Position numbers and translations under genes: made by a program
Source: Candidatus Saccharimonadales bacterium
Lineage (GTDB): Bacteria; Patescibacteriota; Saccharimonadia; Saccharimonadales; UBA4665
Direction: 5' to 3'
NCBI GenBank assembly: GCA_025450135.1
Contig: JANWHZ010000024.1
Span: forward strand, 1 to 39,745
Length of the DNA: 39,745 nt
Shown: piece after piece, positions 1,046-10,197 of the stretch
Numbering within the stretch: position 1 is the first letter of the stretch
Layout of the letters: each line of letters begins with the position of its first letter
Notes under the pieces: model-generated
Databases searched by the model: none
Seen by the model: the letters and a program-made list of their open reading frames with translations, nothing else
Told to the model about the DNA's origin: nothing

Positions 1046-1951
1046 TTACGCGCCAACTTTATCTTTCTTATGGCGGGCCTTAGCGTTGTGCTCTATGTAT
1101 TCAATGATCGTTGTAGCCACATCGCGCTTGGTGAGCAGCTCGGGTGTTTTTAAACTTGCTGATGAATTAACTTCAAGTACCAGCGGGCCTTTTTCAGAGC
1201 GCATCATATCAACGCCACAAATAGGCAGGCCCATAGCTTTAGCTGCTTTGAGCGCTGTCTTCTCCTCTTCTTCAGTCAGTTTCACTCGCTTGCCGACGCC
1301 GCCTTGATGAGTGTTGGAACGGAAGTCTTCTGTCAAACTTTGGCGCATAATGCTCGCAACAACACGACCGCCAACTACCAATGCACGTATATCGCTACCG
1401 GCGGATTCTTGTACAAATTCTTGCACCACAAAGCTCACACTCTCAACATAGAATGCCTGCATTACTGCCTTAGCTGCTTTGCGCGTCTCCGCCAATACCA
1501 CGCCGTTACCGTGTGTACCTCGTGCAACCTTAATAATCACCGGCGTGCCGCCGGCAAGCTCAATGACTTCTTCAAAGTCTGCCGTCTCACGAGCAAAAAC
1601 TGTCTTCGGAACGCCCACGCCAGCTTTTGCAAGTAACTGATACGCCCGCAGTTTGTCACGGCTGCGGTTAATGGCAATCGAGCTCGACGTCGTAAAGACG
1701 CCCTGCATCTCAAATTGTCGTACGACTGCTGTACCGTATTTCGTCAGGCTTTGTGCTATACGCGGCACGATCGCATCGACGCCAGTCAGTTTTTCACCTT
1801 TGTAGTATACGACCGGGTTGCCCTTTTCGATGGTCATGTAGCACTTGGCATAGTTAACGACGCGTACTTCATGTCCGCGCACTAAAGCGGCTTCTTTGAG
1901 GCGCTTTGTTGTATAGTTCAAGGCCCCTTTGGATAGAATGACAATATTCAT
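1046..1951 (-). CDS. rimK: RimK-family alpha-L-glutamate ligase (ATP-grasp)
   Basis: The 301-residue protein matches the length of E. coli RimK (about 300) and shows its layout. There is an N-terminal pre-ATP-grasp domain (MNIVILSKGALNYTTKRL), a linker with SRDKLRAYQLLAKAGVGVPKT near residue 98, a nucleotide-binding lysine in PVIIKVARGTHGNGV (about 137-151), and the metal-binding end CGVDMMRSEKGPLVLEVNSSAS (about 245-267). RimK ligases add glutamates to a carboxyl terminus, classically that of ribosomal protein S6, or act on small molecules; the substrate here is not shown. An SD-like GAGAGG precedes the ATG. It is the last gene of a tight operon, 4 nt after the retropepsin-like gene. That pairing resembles the Rim (RimK/RimB) module. 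Confidence 0.88.
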   Translation of the reverse strand: MNIVILSKGALNYTTKRLKEAALVRGHEVRVVNYAKCYMTIEKGNPVVYYKGEKLTGVDAIVPRIAQSLTKYGTAVVRQFEMQGVFTTSSSIAINRSRDKLRAYQLLAKAGVGVPKTVFARETADFEEVIELAGGTPVIIKVARGTHGNGVVLAETRKAAKAVMQAFYVESVSFVVQEFVQESAGSDIRALVVGGRVVASIMRQSLTEDFRSNTHQGGVGKRVKLTEEEEKTALKAAKAMGLPICGVDMMRSEKGPLVLEVNSSASLKTPELLTKRDVATTIIEYIEHNAKARHKKDKVGA

Positions 1952-1955
1952 AACA

Positions 1956-2459
1956 TTACCTCTCGTTCTCTTGTTCTTGGCTAATATTCTGCATCTCTTC
2001 TGCGAGCCTCTGCATGCGTCTGTATTCTTGCTGTTTTAGTGGCTCGCCGGCTTCAACATCTACTAAAAATTTACCTTTCAGCAGGCGTCTGCCAATGAGA
2101 ATCGGATACAATTTTGAGCTTCGATTTGAAAGGGTAAAAGATGCCTTGATGCGGCGTCCCTTCAGCTCTATACGCAACTTTACCACATAGCGCAGCTCTT
2201 TTTCTCCAAACGAGCTGGCAATACGAGTCATATGATACTGACTCTTAGGAACAGTGACGACGTGAGCGGTATAATAACGGCTTGCTTTGTTAAACAGCGT
2301 AAATGTCAGTCCGGTATCGGTTGCTTGGATGTTGCTTGCCCACAGACTGCTGACGTCCGCACCCGTGTCGATTTTAGCTGGAATTAATATATCACCCAGT
2401 TCAGGAAAGCGAACGAGTTCCGCACGGCCGATGATCGTCTTGTGTCGTATGTTGGACAT
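1956..2459 (-). CDS. Retropepsin-like aspartic protease (RimB / PF05618 type)
   Basis: The key motif is AKIDTGADVSSLWA, the DTGA active-site loop of single-domain retropepsins, about 30 residues into the protein. A flap-like region follows and then the second hydrophobic strand YPILIGRRLLKGKFLVDV. This fits the family once annotated as ATP-dependent zinc protease, which includes RimB; RimB works with RimK to trim glutamate tails on S6. I chose ATG 2459 (167 residues) because the conserved domain starts soon after it. A TTG at 2504, directly after the upstream stop, would add 15 residues; neither start has a clear Shine-Dalgarno. The C-terminus is charged and helical (EYRRMQRLAEEMQ). It sits between two ATP-grasp genes, so its substrate is probably their product. 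Confidence 0.8.
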   Translation of the reverse strand: MSNIRHKTIIGRAELVRFPELGDILIPAKIDTGADVSSLWASNIQATDTGLTFTLFNKASRYYTAHVVTVPKSQYHMTRIASSFGEKELRYVVKLRIELKGRRIKASFTLSNRSSKLYPILIGRRLLKGKFLVDVEAGEPLKQQEYRRMQRLAEEMQNISQEQENER

Positions 2460-2504
2460 AGCTACGCTGTTTTGATCTTGTTTATTATAAACTATAAGGG
2501 TCAA

Positions 2505-3542
2505 TTAAGCAACAGCGTTTTGAAGAGATACTTCGAGGTAATCTAAATATCTCGATACAACATCCTGTGGGTTGCCTATGGTGGGCTGCTCATGGATAAA
2601 GAGTGCCGGGCATTTATTGATTTCGATGATTTTGGGCTGCAGTGCGGCAGCGGTGCCGCCTTTCGGCCTATCCGAAAGCAAGATGTCGACACCGCAGACG
2701 GGAAGCTCGGCTACTTTTGCTGCGGATTCTGCAAGCAAGCGTAGCCAATCTGGGATATCGTCGGTGACATCTTCCGTTTCTCCACCCGTGCCGACGTTTG
2801 CAGTGCCTACAACCTGAATGTCTACGCCATCAGGTGCAATTGCTGCAAGTTCGGCACCAAGGTACCGTTCCGCTAGCGCAATATCAATGCGGCCTAAAGT
2901 GCTCCTGTAGGCTTGGCCACGGTTCTCCTGCTGGTTCTCACGCTCAACCAGCTCCCGAATGGTATGCTTGCCATCTCCTTTTATGCGTGCTGGGTGACGG
3001 ATAAGAGCAGCTTGATAGGTATAACCGATACAGAGTACACGCACGTCAATCGGGTGCGCAATATATTCTTGCACAATAATACTGTCACTGAATTGTCGTG
3101 CAAATTGGGCGGCATCCCGCGCTTGATTCATTGTGGTGACAGCTACCGTTACACCGTTACCATGCCCAGCATCAAAAGGCTTAATGACAAAAGCGCGTTT
3201 ATGCGCTAAAAACGTCTCGGCGGCGGCGTCGATCTCAGCACCTTCAGTAACAAAATACGTTTCCGGAACTGGCAAGCCATGTGATGCAAACCGTTGATGC
3301 GTGGCATATTTATCATCTGCGCGATGCGCCGCAATATATGAAGTCTGTGGCGGAGTTGCACTGTAAATCTCAATAGCCTTGCCCGGCTCAATCGCGAGCA
3401 GTAAGTGCGAGCTGCCCGGATAATATTGATCGACTTTCCATCCGCGTTTTTTGGCTGCATCAGCAATCAGGCGCGCGGTCTTCATAAGATCGCTAAAGCG
3501 CACAGTTTCATCCTGGGCATCAGTCGACAATGGCATATACAT
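2505..3542 (-). CDS. ATP-grasp ligase related to cyanophycin synthetase/GshAB modules
   Basis: 345 residues. The N-terminal third holds a substrate-side domain with HLLLAIEPGKAIEIYSA. The ATP-grasp fold starts near residue 95: RFASHGLPVPETY, then AFVIKPFDAGHGNGVTV (nucleotide-binding Lys and Gly loop), IIVQEYI, and RVLCIG. The stretch IKGDGKHTIRELVERENQQ followed by RG closely resembles the hallmark DGxHTIxELI...N...RG region of cyanophycin synthetase and bifunctional glutathione synthetase. The metal site is CGVDILL...PKIIEINKCPAL. It probably forms an amide bond between an amino acid and a carboxylate. The start overlaps the upstream gene by 23 nt (or 17 nt from the second ATG at 3536), so the two are likely translationally coupled. 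Substrate not known. Confidence 0.78.
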   Translation of the reverse strand: MYMPLSTDAQDETVRFSDLMKTARLIADAAKKRGWKVDQYYPGSSHLLLAIEPGKAIEIYSATPPQTSYIAAHRADDKYATHQRFASHGLPVPETYFVTEGAEIDAAAETFLAHKRAFVIKPFDAGHGNGVTVAVTTMNQARDAAQFARQFSDSIIVQEYIAHPIDVRVLCIGYTYQAALIRHPARIKGDGKHTIRELVERENQQENRGQAYRSTLGRIDIALAERYLGAELAAIAPDGVDIQVVGTANVGTGGETEDVTDDIPDWLRLLAESAAKVAELPVCGVDILLSDRPKGGTAAALQPKIIEINKCPALFIHEQPTIGNPQDVVSRYLDYLEVSLQNAVA

Positions 3543-4794
3543 TTGATTCTATTTCTTTCACGGCTGCCATGTAGGCAGCAACATCTTCACTTGCGATAGC
3601 GAATTCCGCAAGAGCGTGGCCACCGTGCTTTGCAAATCGGCAGACATCTCCATGTTGGGCAACGATGCTGCTCCACACCAGCAGCGGGCTGGACGTGACA
3701 ATTTCTAGACCGTGAATTTCGCGCAGTTTTCCCTCGCTATGCGGGTAGATGCTATACGTTGCACACTGCCGTACTGCAGCAGTTGGTATACGCGGCTCGC
3801 GGCCGAGATGAATCAATATATCATTGAGCGAATGGTCAATGTCGTACGCCTGACGGTACATAGTATTGCGGAAGCGTCCAAGGCGCGGCCCTAGCTCGAT
3901 AATTTTCCAGCCCGCTCGCGTACGCACCAGCTCCACATGTGCTGACGAATACGTTAGCGCAATTGCAGAAAGGGCTTTACGGACTGTTTCGTTAGCAGCC
4001 GTTATCTCCTCGCTAGGCAGCTCAGTCGGCATAAACCGCTTATACAGAAAAAAGTCGTCAACGCCTAGCTGTTTGGCTGGTATATACGCAACAGGGGGGG
4101 TGTAATAGACGGCGTCAGAGTGCATAACATACGCGTCTACGGAGTAGAAGTCACCTTCTAGGTATTCTTCTACGATTACCTGTGGCTCGTCGATTCGGTG
4201 CTCCTGCTCGTACACTCGCTGGATTTCAGTAAACACAGTCTGAAGTGCATCGACGAGTTCTGCTTTGGTTGAACATTCATGTATCAGCAAGCTGGAGGCA
4301 AGATTGGCAGGTTTTACAATAACAGGATAGGTCATGGCTTGCTCTACTTCACGTATGGCGGCCTCGGCACTACTGCCTACTCGCACAAACTTAGGTGTAA
4401 TTTCCGGATATGCTTTCTGAAATGCTTCGCGCATTAAAAGCTTATTGGTGGCTTTAGTAAGCGCTTCAACTGAAGCAACCCGAACATGAGCCGGCAATAG
4501 CGGCACCACTTTCCGTAAATACTGTATGCGCTTATCGCCGCGGCAAACCACGCCAACGAGTTTCTCAAGGTAAGGTTTCAAGAGGGTGCGCAATGTTTCA
4601 GGGTCCTCAAAACTACACCTAGCCAACTCTACAGGTACTGACGAAGCCGCCACTAGACGCTCGTATCTTTGGGGTTGCCGCGTAAGAACATACAGCCCAC
4701 AGTCAGCAAATCCGGGCAACGCGCGTATTTTCACCATGCTTTGTAGGATGCTTGGCGGCAACGAATCTACCACAAGTATGTATTTCTGCTTCAT
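3520..4794 (-). CDS. ATP-grasp ligase, L-amino acid ligase/carbamoyl-phosphate synthase-like
   Basis: The 424-residue protein starts at the ATG giving MKQKYILVVDSLPPS; a longer frame exists, but its extra 33 residues are unconserved in appearance and would overlap a likely small upstream gene. An N-terminal Rossmann-like half is followed by the ATP-grasp core: LMREAFQKAYPEITPKFV, YPVIVKPANLASSL (about 163-176), QVIVEEYLEGDFYSVDAYV, and the metal and phosphate site HVELVRTRAGWKIIELGPRLG. The arrangement is that of dipeptide/L-amino acid ligases, not that of RimK. It is the third ATP-grasp enzyme in the operon and differs from the others in the core, so it probably acts at another step. Substrate unknown. 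Confidence 0.75.
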   Translation of the reverse strand: MKQKYILVVDSLPPSILQSMVKIRALPGFADCGLYVLTRQPQRYERLVAASSVPVELARCSFEDPETLRTLLKPYLEKLVGVVCRGDKRIQYLRKVVPLLPAHVRVASVEALTKATNKLLMREAFQKAYPEITPKFVRVGSSAEAAIREVEQAMTYPVIVKPANLASSLLIHECSTKAELVDALQTVFTEIQRVYEQEHRIDEPQVIVEEYLEGDFYSVDAYVMHSDAVYYTPPVAYIPAKQLGVDDFFLYKRFMPTELPSEEITAANETVRKALSAIALTYSSAHVELVRTRAGWKIIELGPRLGRFRNTMYRQAYDIDHSLNDILIHLGREPRIPTAAVRQCATYSIYPHSEGKLREIHGLEIVTSSPLLVWSSIVAQHGDVCRFAKHGGHALAEFAIASEDVAAYMAAVKEIESNVYAIVD

Positions 4795-4819
4795 AGACTT
4801 CTTGTTACCACTCTGATGG

Positions 4820-4942
4820 TTATGGCTGTACAGCCCGGACACGCAAGAACACAAGCGCAGCAATTGCAATAAAGATGAGGAGCAAGGTGACAATCGCGGT
4901 TACAATGCCGGACTGATGAGCGGGGTGCCTCATACGCGCCAT
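4820..4942 (-). CDS. Small single-span membrane peptide (40 aa)
   Basis: A 40-codon frame starts at ATG 4942 and stops 25 nt before the ATP-grasp gene. The product has a basic N-terminus (MARMRHPAHQSG), one strong membrane span (IVTAIVTLLLIFIAIAALVFL) and a short basic end (RVRAVQP). The clean span with flanking positive charges supports a real gene. The length and weak ribosome site keep this tentative. As first gene of the ATP-grasp operon it might be an anchor or a precursor peptide for the ligases; nothing in the sequence proves either. Confidence 0.45.
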   Translation of the reverse strand: MARMRHPAHQSGIVTAIVTLLLIFIAIAALVFLRVRAVQP

Positions 4943-8614: not shown

Positions 8615-9364
8615 CTACCCCACTGGGTGGGCGTGCGTGCCGAGGTAGCGCACCACGTCATTCAAGAGTTCTTGAGCAATCGCTCGCACGCTGCGTTCCT
8701 TAAACGGGTCATATTGCCCTGTCATAATCAGGCGGTCGATTTCCGCAATCGTGCCTTCGCGCGTATCGTTTAGGATAAAGCGGAAATAGTCGGCTCGGAG
8801 CGCAGTAGAGAGCTCCCGCTCGGCGCTTTCCATACGGCGCTGCAACTCATCAAGTGACATGCCGCCGCGCAAATGTAATCGCTCCATCCAGATATCAAAA
8901 CTGAGGGGCACCATAAAGATGAAAGTGGTGTCCGGCTTCAGCTTATGGATCTCCTGCGCGCCGACAATTTCGATATCGGTCAAGGCAATCTTGCCAGCAC
9001 TCTCGGCAGCCACGAGTTGATCACGGGGGATGCCGGACACTTGTTGATTGTGAATCACCGCCGCGCCGACCAGGTCACCTTTGTTGAGCTCAGTGAGCAT
9101 CTCGTCTTCGCTCAGGAACCAATATTCACGGCCATGCTGTTCTAAAACGCCGTTATTGATACGAGGTTCCCGGGTGGTATCCGTAATAAGCGGGAAATAG
9201 TGACCGGTCTTGACGAGCTCACCGATAATAGTATCGCGGCCAGTGCCGGTTGGAGCAACGAACAGTAACAGCCGCAGCCCGCCCAAGGTCTTGCGGACAT
9301 CGTCCGACGGTCGGTAATGTTCGAGGACTTTGCGGAACTCTTCGGCTTGGATTAGGGAACTCAT
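8615..9364 (-). CDS. Guanylate kinase-like paralogue with altered P-loop
   Basis: 249 residues, paralogous to the next gene and aligned with it almost end to end. The P-loop reads APTGTGRDT at 37-45: the Walker A lysine that binds phosphate is arginine at residue 43. The GMP-binding region TDTTREPRINNGVLEQHGREYWF is kept, as are IALTDIEIVGA and the lid helix with arginines (ELQRRMESAERELSTA). The loss of the P-loop lysine suggests a weak or lost kinase activity, or a new role. It lies 45 nt after the intact copy on the same strand; a TAAGCT box 10 nt before its ATG may give it a separate promoter. Guanylate kinases convert GMP to GDP with ATP. Confidence 0.75.
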   Translation of the reverse strand: MSSLIQAEEFRKVLEHYRPSDDVRKTLGGLRLLLFVAPTGTGRDTIIGELVKTGHYFPLITDTTREPRINNGVLEQHGREYWFLSEDEMLTELNKGDLVGAAVIHNQQVSGIPRDQLVAAESAGKIALTDIEIVGAQEIHKLKPDTTFIFMVPLSFDIWMERLHLRGGMSLDELQRRMESAERELSTALRADYFRFILNDTREGTIAEIDRLIMTGQYDPFKERSVRAIAQELLNDVVRYLGTHAHPVG

Positions 9365-9408
9365 GTACGTACTAAGCTTAGCAAGGAAAACAATAATAGG
9401 GCAAACAC

Positions 9409-10161
9409 CTAGACCCGCGCTGGCTGATGCGCAGCAATACTGAGCTTCAGGCTATAGGCTAGTGCGTTCGCCACTCGGTGCGCTGCTTCCTTCTCGGCGG
9501 TTTCCGGCTGGCCCGATGCAATTCGGCCCACTTCTGCTACGGCGTCCTCGAGTACGTTGTTAATCACAAACGAGAAGTACGGCGTACGTAGTGCATGCTC
9601 AATTTCTTGTAGAGCGGTAGCCATGCGTTTTTCGAAATCTGCTTGATCCATCGCGGCGCCATACCGTTTGGCAAGCCGGCTCTGCCACACCTCATAGTCC
9701 GGCGGTAGAATAAACACGGCTTTGGTGTTATTAGGATCGATCTTCATGTAATCGGCCACGCCTTGCACTTCCAGATCGGTAACCGCAATTTTGTGGGCAT
9801 CGTGCGCCGCCTGTACTTCAGCCGCGCTCGTGCCGTAGACGTTGCTACCATAAATATTTGCTTCAACGTAGGCACCATTGTCAACCATCCGTTCGGATTC
9901 TTCAAGCGTAATGAAGTGGTACTCGACACCATCTTGCTCCATAACCCCGTCGTTTTCGCGCGGGCTACGCGTAGTATGCGACACCAAGGTATAGTACTTT
10001 CCAGTTTTGAGCAGCTCATTGGTAATGCTGTCTTTACCCGCACCTGATATGCCAGCCAGTAGTAAGATTGGCGTCGACCGGACAAGCGTAATCGTTGCAG
10101 CCGAGGGCTGATATTTCTCGAGCTTTTCTTTCAGGCGGGCGTGGACTTCAGAGCCTTCCAT
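9409..10161 (-). CDS. gmk: Guanylate kinase
   Basis: 250 residues from the ATG giving MEGSEVHARL. That start places the P-loop GISGAGKDS at 37-45, exactly as in the neighbouring paralogue, and lies 6 nt after a TATACT box. The GMP site SHTTRSPRENDGVMEQDGVEYHF, the strand IAVTDLEVQG and the arginine lid (FEKRMATALQEIEHA) are intact, so this copy should phosphorylate GMP to GDP. Typical guanylate kinases have about 205 residues; this one has extra N- and C-terminal helices shared with the paralogue. It follows an IMPDH/GMP reductase-type gene, a fitting purine-nucleotide context. Confidence 0.87.
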   Translation of the reverse strand: MEGSEVHARLKEKLEKYQPSAATITLVRSTPILLLAGISGAGKDSITNELLKTGKYYTLVSHTTRSPRENDGVMEQDGVEYHFITLEESERMVDNGAYVEANIYGSNVYGTSAAEVQAAHDAHKIAVTDLEVQGVADYMKIDPNNTKAVFILPPDYEVWQSRLAKRYGAAMDQADFEKRMATALQEIEHALRTPYFSFVINNVLEDAVAEVGRIASGQPETAEKEAAHRVANALAYSLKLSIAAHQPARV

Positions 10162-10167
10162 GAAAGC

Positions 10168-10197
10168 AGTATACAGAGCGTAAACGGAATGATGCAA
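10168..10197 (-). promoter_or_regulatory. Promoter of gmk, leaderless type
   Basis: TTGCAT (10197 to 10192), an 18-nt spacer and TATACT (10173 to 10168) end 6 nt before the ATG at 10161. The predicted start of transcription is the start codon itself. The promoter ends just short of the stop codon of the upstream gene. Confidence 0.6.

Follow-up and report, generated by a model that had tools for sequence, protein, structure and literature searches.

Ultra-small bacteria, their genomes reduced, have shed most biosynthesis, yet the class Saccharimonadia mostly retains a rim locus. In one Candidatus Saccharimonadales genome (829 kb in 58 contigs) this locus combines three ATP-grasp ligases with a retropepsin, raising the question of what such an operon might build, and on which molecule. 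The window analyzed here is a 39,745-nucleotide stretch of this focal genome. For comparison, 147 genomes of the class were surveyed, with prevalence being counted in 137 good genomes. Fetching the regions around RimK gave 114 loci with RimK, including the focal window, whose ORFs were classed by HMMs built from the window proteins.

The operon and its enzymes

The operon lies on the reverse strand. At its head, an ORF at positions 4820 to 4942 encodes a 40-residue peptide with a single transmembrane helix, best described, from its sequence features, as mini-prepilin-like. It is followed by an L-amino-acid-ligase-like (LAL) ATP-grasp gene of the LAL-II clade (3520 to 4794; 424 residues from ATG, the listed ORF of 457 residues beginning at a TTG upstream), by CphL, a stand-alone ATP-grasp protein resembling the G domain of cyanophycin synthetase (2505 to 3542; 345 residues), by a RimB-like retropepsin (Pfam ID PF05618) with the motif K29-x-D31-TGA (1956 to 2459; 167 residues from ATG), and by the alpha-L-glutamate ligase RimK (1046 to 1951; 301 residues). 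The genes are as tightly packed as the preliminary description had stated: the junctions measure -23 nt (an overlap) between LAL and CphL, 45 nt between CphL and the retropepsin, reduced to 0 by an alternative TTG start at 2504, and 4 nt between the retropepsin and RimK. Its assignment of three distinct ATP-grasp subfamilies and one DTGA retropepsin is borne out by the domain matches.

On the same strand, 45 nt after rimK, lies a gene, overlooked in the preliminary description, for a multi-TM protein (503 to 1000; 165 residues), for which the Pfam search matched no family. Relatives of this protein are present in 79 genomes, in 76 of them within 4 kb of rimK and typically directly after it. 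The four operon genes have a G+C content of 0.47 to 0.51 against 0.525 for the window and thus carry no strong foreign signature. Elsewhere in the window, positions 8615 to 10197 hold a tandem pair of guanylate-kinase-like ORFs (249 and 262 residues) with P-loop-like sequences.

RimK matches PF08443 (2e-55) and Rimk_N (8e-37) and aligns over nearly its full length with the probable alpha-L-glutamate ligase of PDB ID 7qys (2.2e-89) and the ribosomal protein S6 modification protein of PDB ID 4iwx (4.9e-81). The score against TIGR00768, the family of RimK alpha-L-glutamate ligases, is 243.6 bits, above the cut-off of 143.4, while the S6--L-glutamate ligase equivalog NF007764 is matched over residues 1 to 295 with 317.0 bits, slightly under its cut-off of 331. 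The E-x-N metal motif is present as LEVNSS, aligned with the solved RimK structures.

The retropepsin, with DTGA at residues 31 to 34, passes PF05618 (61.3 bits against a cut-off of 27; E = 1.2e-16) and scores 63.4 bits against the RimB equivalog NF052261, far under the cut-off of 200. Its residues K29, D31, R90, and R113 are the equivalents of K46, D48, R114, and R137 of RloA, of which K46, R114, and R137 bind poly-Glu and all four matter for its cleavage (PMC12239564), and the same four columns hold K/R, D, R/K, and R in about 103 homologues. By this alignment, the focal retropepsin keeps the catalytic Asp as well as the poly-Glu-binding Lys/Arg residues. RimB is described to cut poly-Glu and to stimulate RimK (PMC11957791).

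CphL matches the cyanophycin synthetase model TIGR02068 in its ATP-grasp part only (about positions 157 to 470, 1e-57). With 194 to 196 bits against a cut-off of 850, it falls short of a full synthetase with G and M domains. The CphL family profile matches PDB ID 7lgn with 8.6e-69, and K78, K121, R168, E307, and N309, which include the E-x-N motif, are invariant in 23 aligned proteins. None of the 147 genomes of the class contains a full-length CphA above the cut-off, and the Mur-ligase match on contig C41 of the focal genome is of a type present in nearly every genome. Since CphL has no adjoining M domain, we reject full cyanophycin synthesis for the focal genome.

The LAL protein passes PF13535 (ATP-grasp_4; 66.7 bits against a cut-off of 27, E = 2.4e-18), with LAL_C2 at 19.3 bits remaining under its cut-off of 29.4. 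Its family profile matches BL00235 (PDB ID 3vot) with 1.4e-31, covering BL00235 residues 57 to 414, and BacD with 2.3e-24; the columns of K118, K161, E209, H286, E288, E300, and R304 are invariant. In the tree, the LALs fall into two deep clades. One is composed of 13 rim-adjacent LALs, and the other, LAL-II (support 100/100), includes the focal LAL, proteins of genomes G043, G065, and G005, and two paralogues from contig C45 of the focal genome. These paralogues form a tandem away from the rim locus, beside rplS-like and rnhB-like ORFs (L196:7477-10129). Scanning a contig collection with the focal LAL gave one remote match, on a Lachnospiraceae MAG contig (L098) without rim genes.

The rim locus across the class

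Of the 137 good genomes, 115 have RimK and 101 have RimB (PF05618). All 103 RimB homologues in RimK loci lie on the strand of RimK, 97 of them within 60 nt and 3 fused to it. The usual order is hrcA-grpE-dnaK-dnaJ, a variable cassette, rimB-rimK, DUF192, TM161, comEC, and yebC-ruvC. The RimB-RimK pair stands alone in 33 of the 114 rim loci, and half of them (57/114) hold at least one further ATP-grasp gene, being a RimK paralogue, CphL, or LAL. The operon is therefore neither a unique oddity nor a peculiarity of its lineage. The complete set of LAL, CphL, RimB, and RimK occurs in four loci, LAL being co-directional with the rest only in the focal one, and LAL and CphL are exchangeable, so a fixed four-gene unit is likewise rejected. 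The preliminary description had made its reading depend on the four genes keeping together in relatives; RimB and RimK do, while LAL and CphL come and go. Judged by gene content, the focal operon is an expanded and modular rim locus, richer than is usual for this locus in the class. Among the papers searched on Saccharibacteria or Patescibacteria, none describes such a locus in its title or abstract.

Further partners recur at these loci. A MATCAP/QEGLA metallocarboxypeptidase (PF08014 or TIGR02421, with HEx(2-3)H) lies near rimB in 33 rim loci, including L134, L136, and L173; the human relatives take Glu off tubulin tails (PMC10499314). In five RimK loci without RimB (L182, L185, L186, L187, and L188), rimK is immediately followed by a class-I GATase-like gene that may encode a substitute hydrolase. 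A GNAT gene adjoins the CphL neighbour in three cases. Genes of the CphA M-domain type (Mur-ligase half) are found near rimK in genomes G052, G081, G094, G096, and G141. In three rim loci, G-domain-like and M-domain-like genes form a split cyanophycin-synthetase-like pair (L088:8610-10945 in G096, L084 in G094, and L159 in G052).

The link between RimB and the ligases is also seen in fusions. RimB forms the N-terminal part of fusions with RimK (G088, G101, and G146) and with RimK paralogues (G059, G085, G093, G106, G107, G113, and G118), and the C-terminal part of fusions with RimK-like ligases (G007, G023, G032, G033, G044, and G131) and, in G090 only, with CphL (L164:8827-10335). Loci with RimB fusions include L081, L083, L114, L120, L142, L164, and L179. 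Such separate events indicate that the protease was repeatedly joined to ATP-grasp ligases. Beyond the class, other members of the phylum have the PF05618-type domain at the C-terminus of a TIGR02291-type ligase, and RimK- or CphL-type genes often lie beside this fusion (L280, L283, L285, L286, and L288 to L294).

Gene content, intact catalytic and poly-Glu-binding residues, linkage, and fusions can thus be read directly from the sequences. From them we infer substrates, step order, and target for a scheme to which we give roughly an even chance, in which RimK and RimB write and trim Glu-rich tails on S6, on free peptides, or on both, and the extra ligases add other residues. RimK would attach L-Glu at the C-terminus of ribosomal protein S6, of a free poly-alpha-Glu chain as it lengthens, or of both; the retropepsin would trim Glu runs and may stimulate RimK, as described in Pseudomonas. 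CphL and LAL, translated together with RimK and RimB, would work on a product of this same type: CphL may activate a peptide C-terminal carboxylate and add a residue, and LAL may couple small amino acids to form a dipeptide or a cap. The outcome would be a mixed tail or peptide instead of pure Glu. Enzyme families, linkage, RimB fusions, and recurring ligase and peptidase partners make the stepwise synthesis of a peptide or tail, as first proposed, plausible, with S6 as a candidate target. Counting against the scheme are the weak match of the retropepsin to the RimB equivalog and the LAL and CphL genes that are present where rimBK is absent.

Alternatively, the operon might unite two independent modules, RimBK editing S6 or poly-Glu while LAL and CphL make an unrelated small peptide, such as an osmolyte, a storage compound, or a bioactive dipeptide derivative. 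We regard this as possible but on the whole unlikely. LAL and CphL types do occur without rimBK, in G043, G065, and G005 and as paralogues on the focal contigs C45 and C52, and so need not share the rimBK substrate. G043 carries RimK paralogue-CphL-LAL at the same dnaJ-to-TM161 site, LAL-II lies beside other ATP-grasps in G005 and G064, and most rim loci lack both LAL and CphL. However, 19 of the 21 CphL matches lie within 6 kb of rimK, and one CphL is fused to RimB. Among strong LAL matches the count is 14 of 25, with about 1.3% being expected for random placement (binomial 5e-34 for CphL and 2e-20 for LAL, the true significance being lower because the genomes are related). Moreover, two LAL clades are present at such loci, suggesting that LAL was probably recruited there more than once.

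As to the target of the Glu-rich tails in the favored scheme, the focal S6 ends in SDSESEG, not in Glu. An S6 ending in EE is found in 24 of 46 genomes with both rimK and rimB against 4 of 31 others (Fisher p=6e-4), an association confounded by ancestry. A pair test on the S6 tree gave four supported independent pairs and no signal, these pairs being too few for power. S6 is thus a weakly supported candidate target of the focal operon.

The 40-residue peptide

The HMM family of the peptide is present in 29 fetched loci, at the cassette head and on the same strand, with the pattern [NQ]-[QE]-x-G-[FL]-[IV]-[PT]-[ML]...Y-x-R-V. Genome-wide, its profile finds 33 genomes with E<1e-11, essentially one copy each, a second copy in G112 lying at a contig end. 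These strong matches sit at the rim locus or with a LAL cassette. The next matches are at 1e-6 or weaker, and the eight readable ones are prepilin-like N-termini. In 33 genomes and at one locus, this is no chance ORF. Its conservation at the cassette head, together with its persistence beside the LAL cassette in G064 and G065, which have no rimBK, identifies it as a genuine part of the locus. Among the prepilin traits of the family are an invariant G12, a basic leader, and a hydrophobic helix, with E+5 in G101 and G146 only.

A further possibility is that the mini-prepilin, or another membrane or pilus protein, is itself the modified target, tailed by the ligases and trimmed by RimB (or, in relatives, by MATCAP). 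Its strict linkage to the locus, kept even with the LAL cassettes of G064 and G065, would fit such a role. Yet the C-termini are basic (KAQ, HH, VQP) and without Glu, and the largest family (f2) has rimBK but no clear peptide copy. Prepilins point their C-terminus out of the cytosol, and with such a topology the C-terminus of the peptide would be separated from the ATP-grasp ligases, which are cytosolic. We consider this explanation improbable. The presence of a small peptide gene, ATP-grasp enzymes, and a protease in one place also recalls a graspetide-like RiPP cluster, where a precursor peptide receives cross-links from ATP-grasp enzymes and is matured by a protease. However, the peptide forms a TM helix and has no acidic or Thr/Ser-rich core, the ligases match amino-acid-adding families while matches to maturase types are marginal, and the operon contains no transporter gene, so that we consider a graspetide cluster very improbable.

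In the favored scheme of written and trimmed tails, the peptide would instead probably anchor or regulate the system, or tie it to membrane or pilus machinery. Of the two roles first suggested for it, substrate and anchor, the basic and non-acidic C-terminus makes an anchoring, pilin-related, or regulatory role likelier than that of a RimK substrate.

A possible tail code and related systems

A bolder and quite tentative extension, which we think rather doubtful as a whole, is that Saccharibacteria use a modular tail code, linked to the mini-prepilin, by which S6 or some other acidic C-terminus receives chemically mixed tails, and that other forms of this code exist in the phylum at large. Around the RimK/RimB core, the writers would be RimK paralogues, CphA-like halves, and LALs, and the erasers the retropepsin, MATCAP-type, and possibly GATase-type hydrolases. 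The logic would be analogous to the editing of tubulin tails by TTLL, CCP, and MATCAP. If mixed ribosomal tails or oligopeptides are indeed made, Rim-type control would reach beyond poly-Glu, a single bacterial site would bring together the components of a tail code, and RimB-like retropepsins and bacterial MATCAP/QEGLA proteins would gain concrete candidate substrates.

Among known systems, MATCAP/TMCP and the QEGLA (DUF1704) proteins, which neighbor rimB in relatives, offer a possible second tail eraser that is absent from the focal genome. The focal LAL shares the ATP-grasp_4 fold and conserved catalytic columns with BL00235 and BacD but sits in a rim operon, and the LAL set of the class is only 23 to 33% identical internally. 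CphL corresponds to the ATP-grasp G domain of CphA1 (7lg5, 7wac), whereas the M domain is missing from the focal operon and M-domain-like genes near rimK are held by the five relatives named above. RloABC of Pseudomonas aeruginosa likewise combines a retropepsin and a cytoplasmic ATP-grasp protein in one operon, and related enzymes cleave poly-Glu (PMC12239564), but that operon encodes a secreted RloA and, as RloB, an inactive 7-TM transglutaminase, and the focal operon shows neither feature. Another parallel is the RimABK or RimBK hybrid of Pseudomonas and Desulfotalea (PMC11957791), which shares RimK with an adjacent or, in relatives, fused RimB-type retropepsin, the poly-Glu-binding residues being kept in the focal enzyme. 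In contrast to that system, the focal operon has a remote RimB sequence and no rimA but includes a mini-prepilin-like peptide and two ATP-grasp ligases besides RimK, and among its relatives RimB is also fused with RimK paralogues and with a CphA-like ligase.
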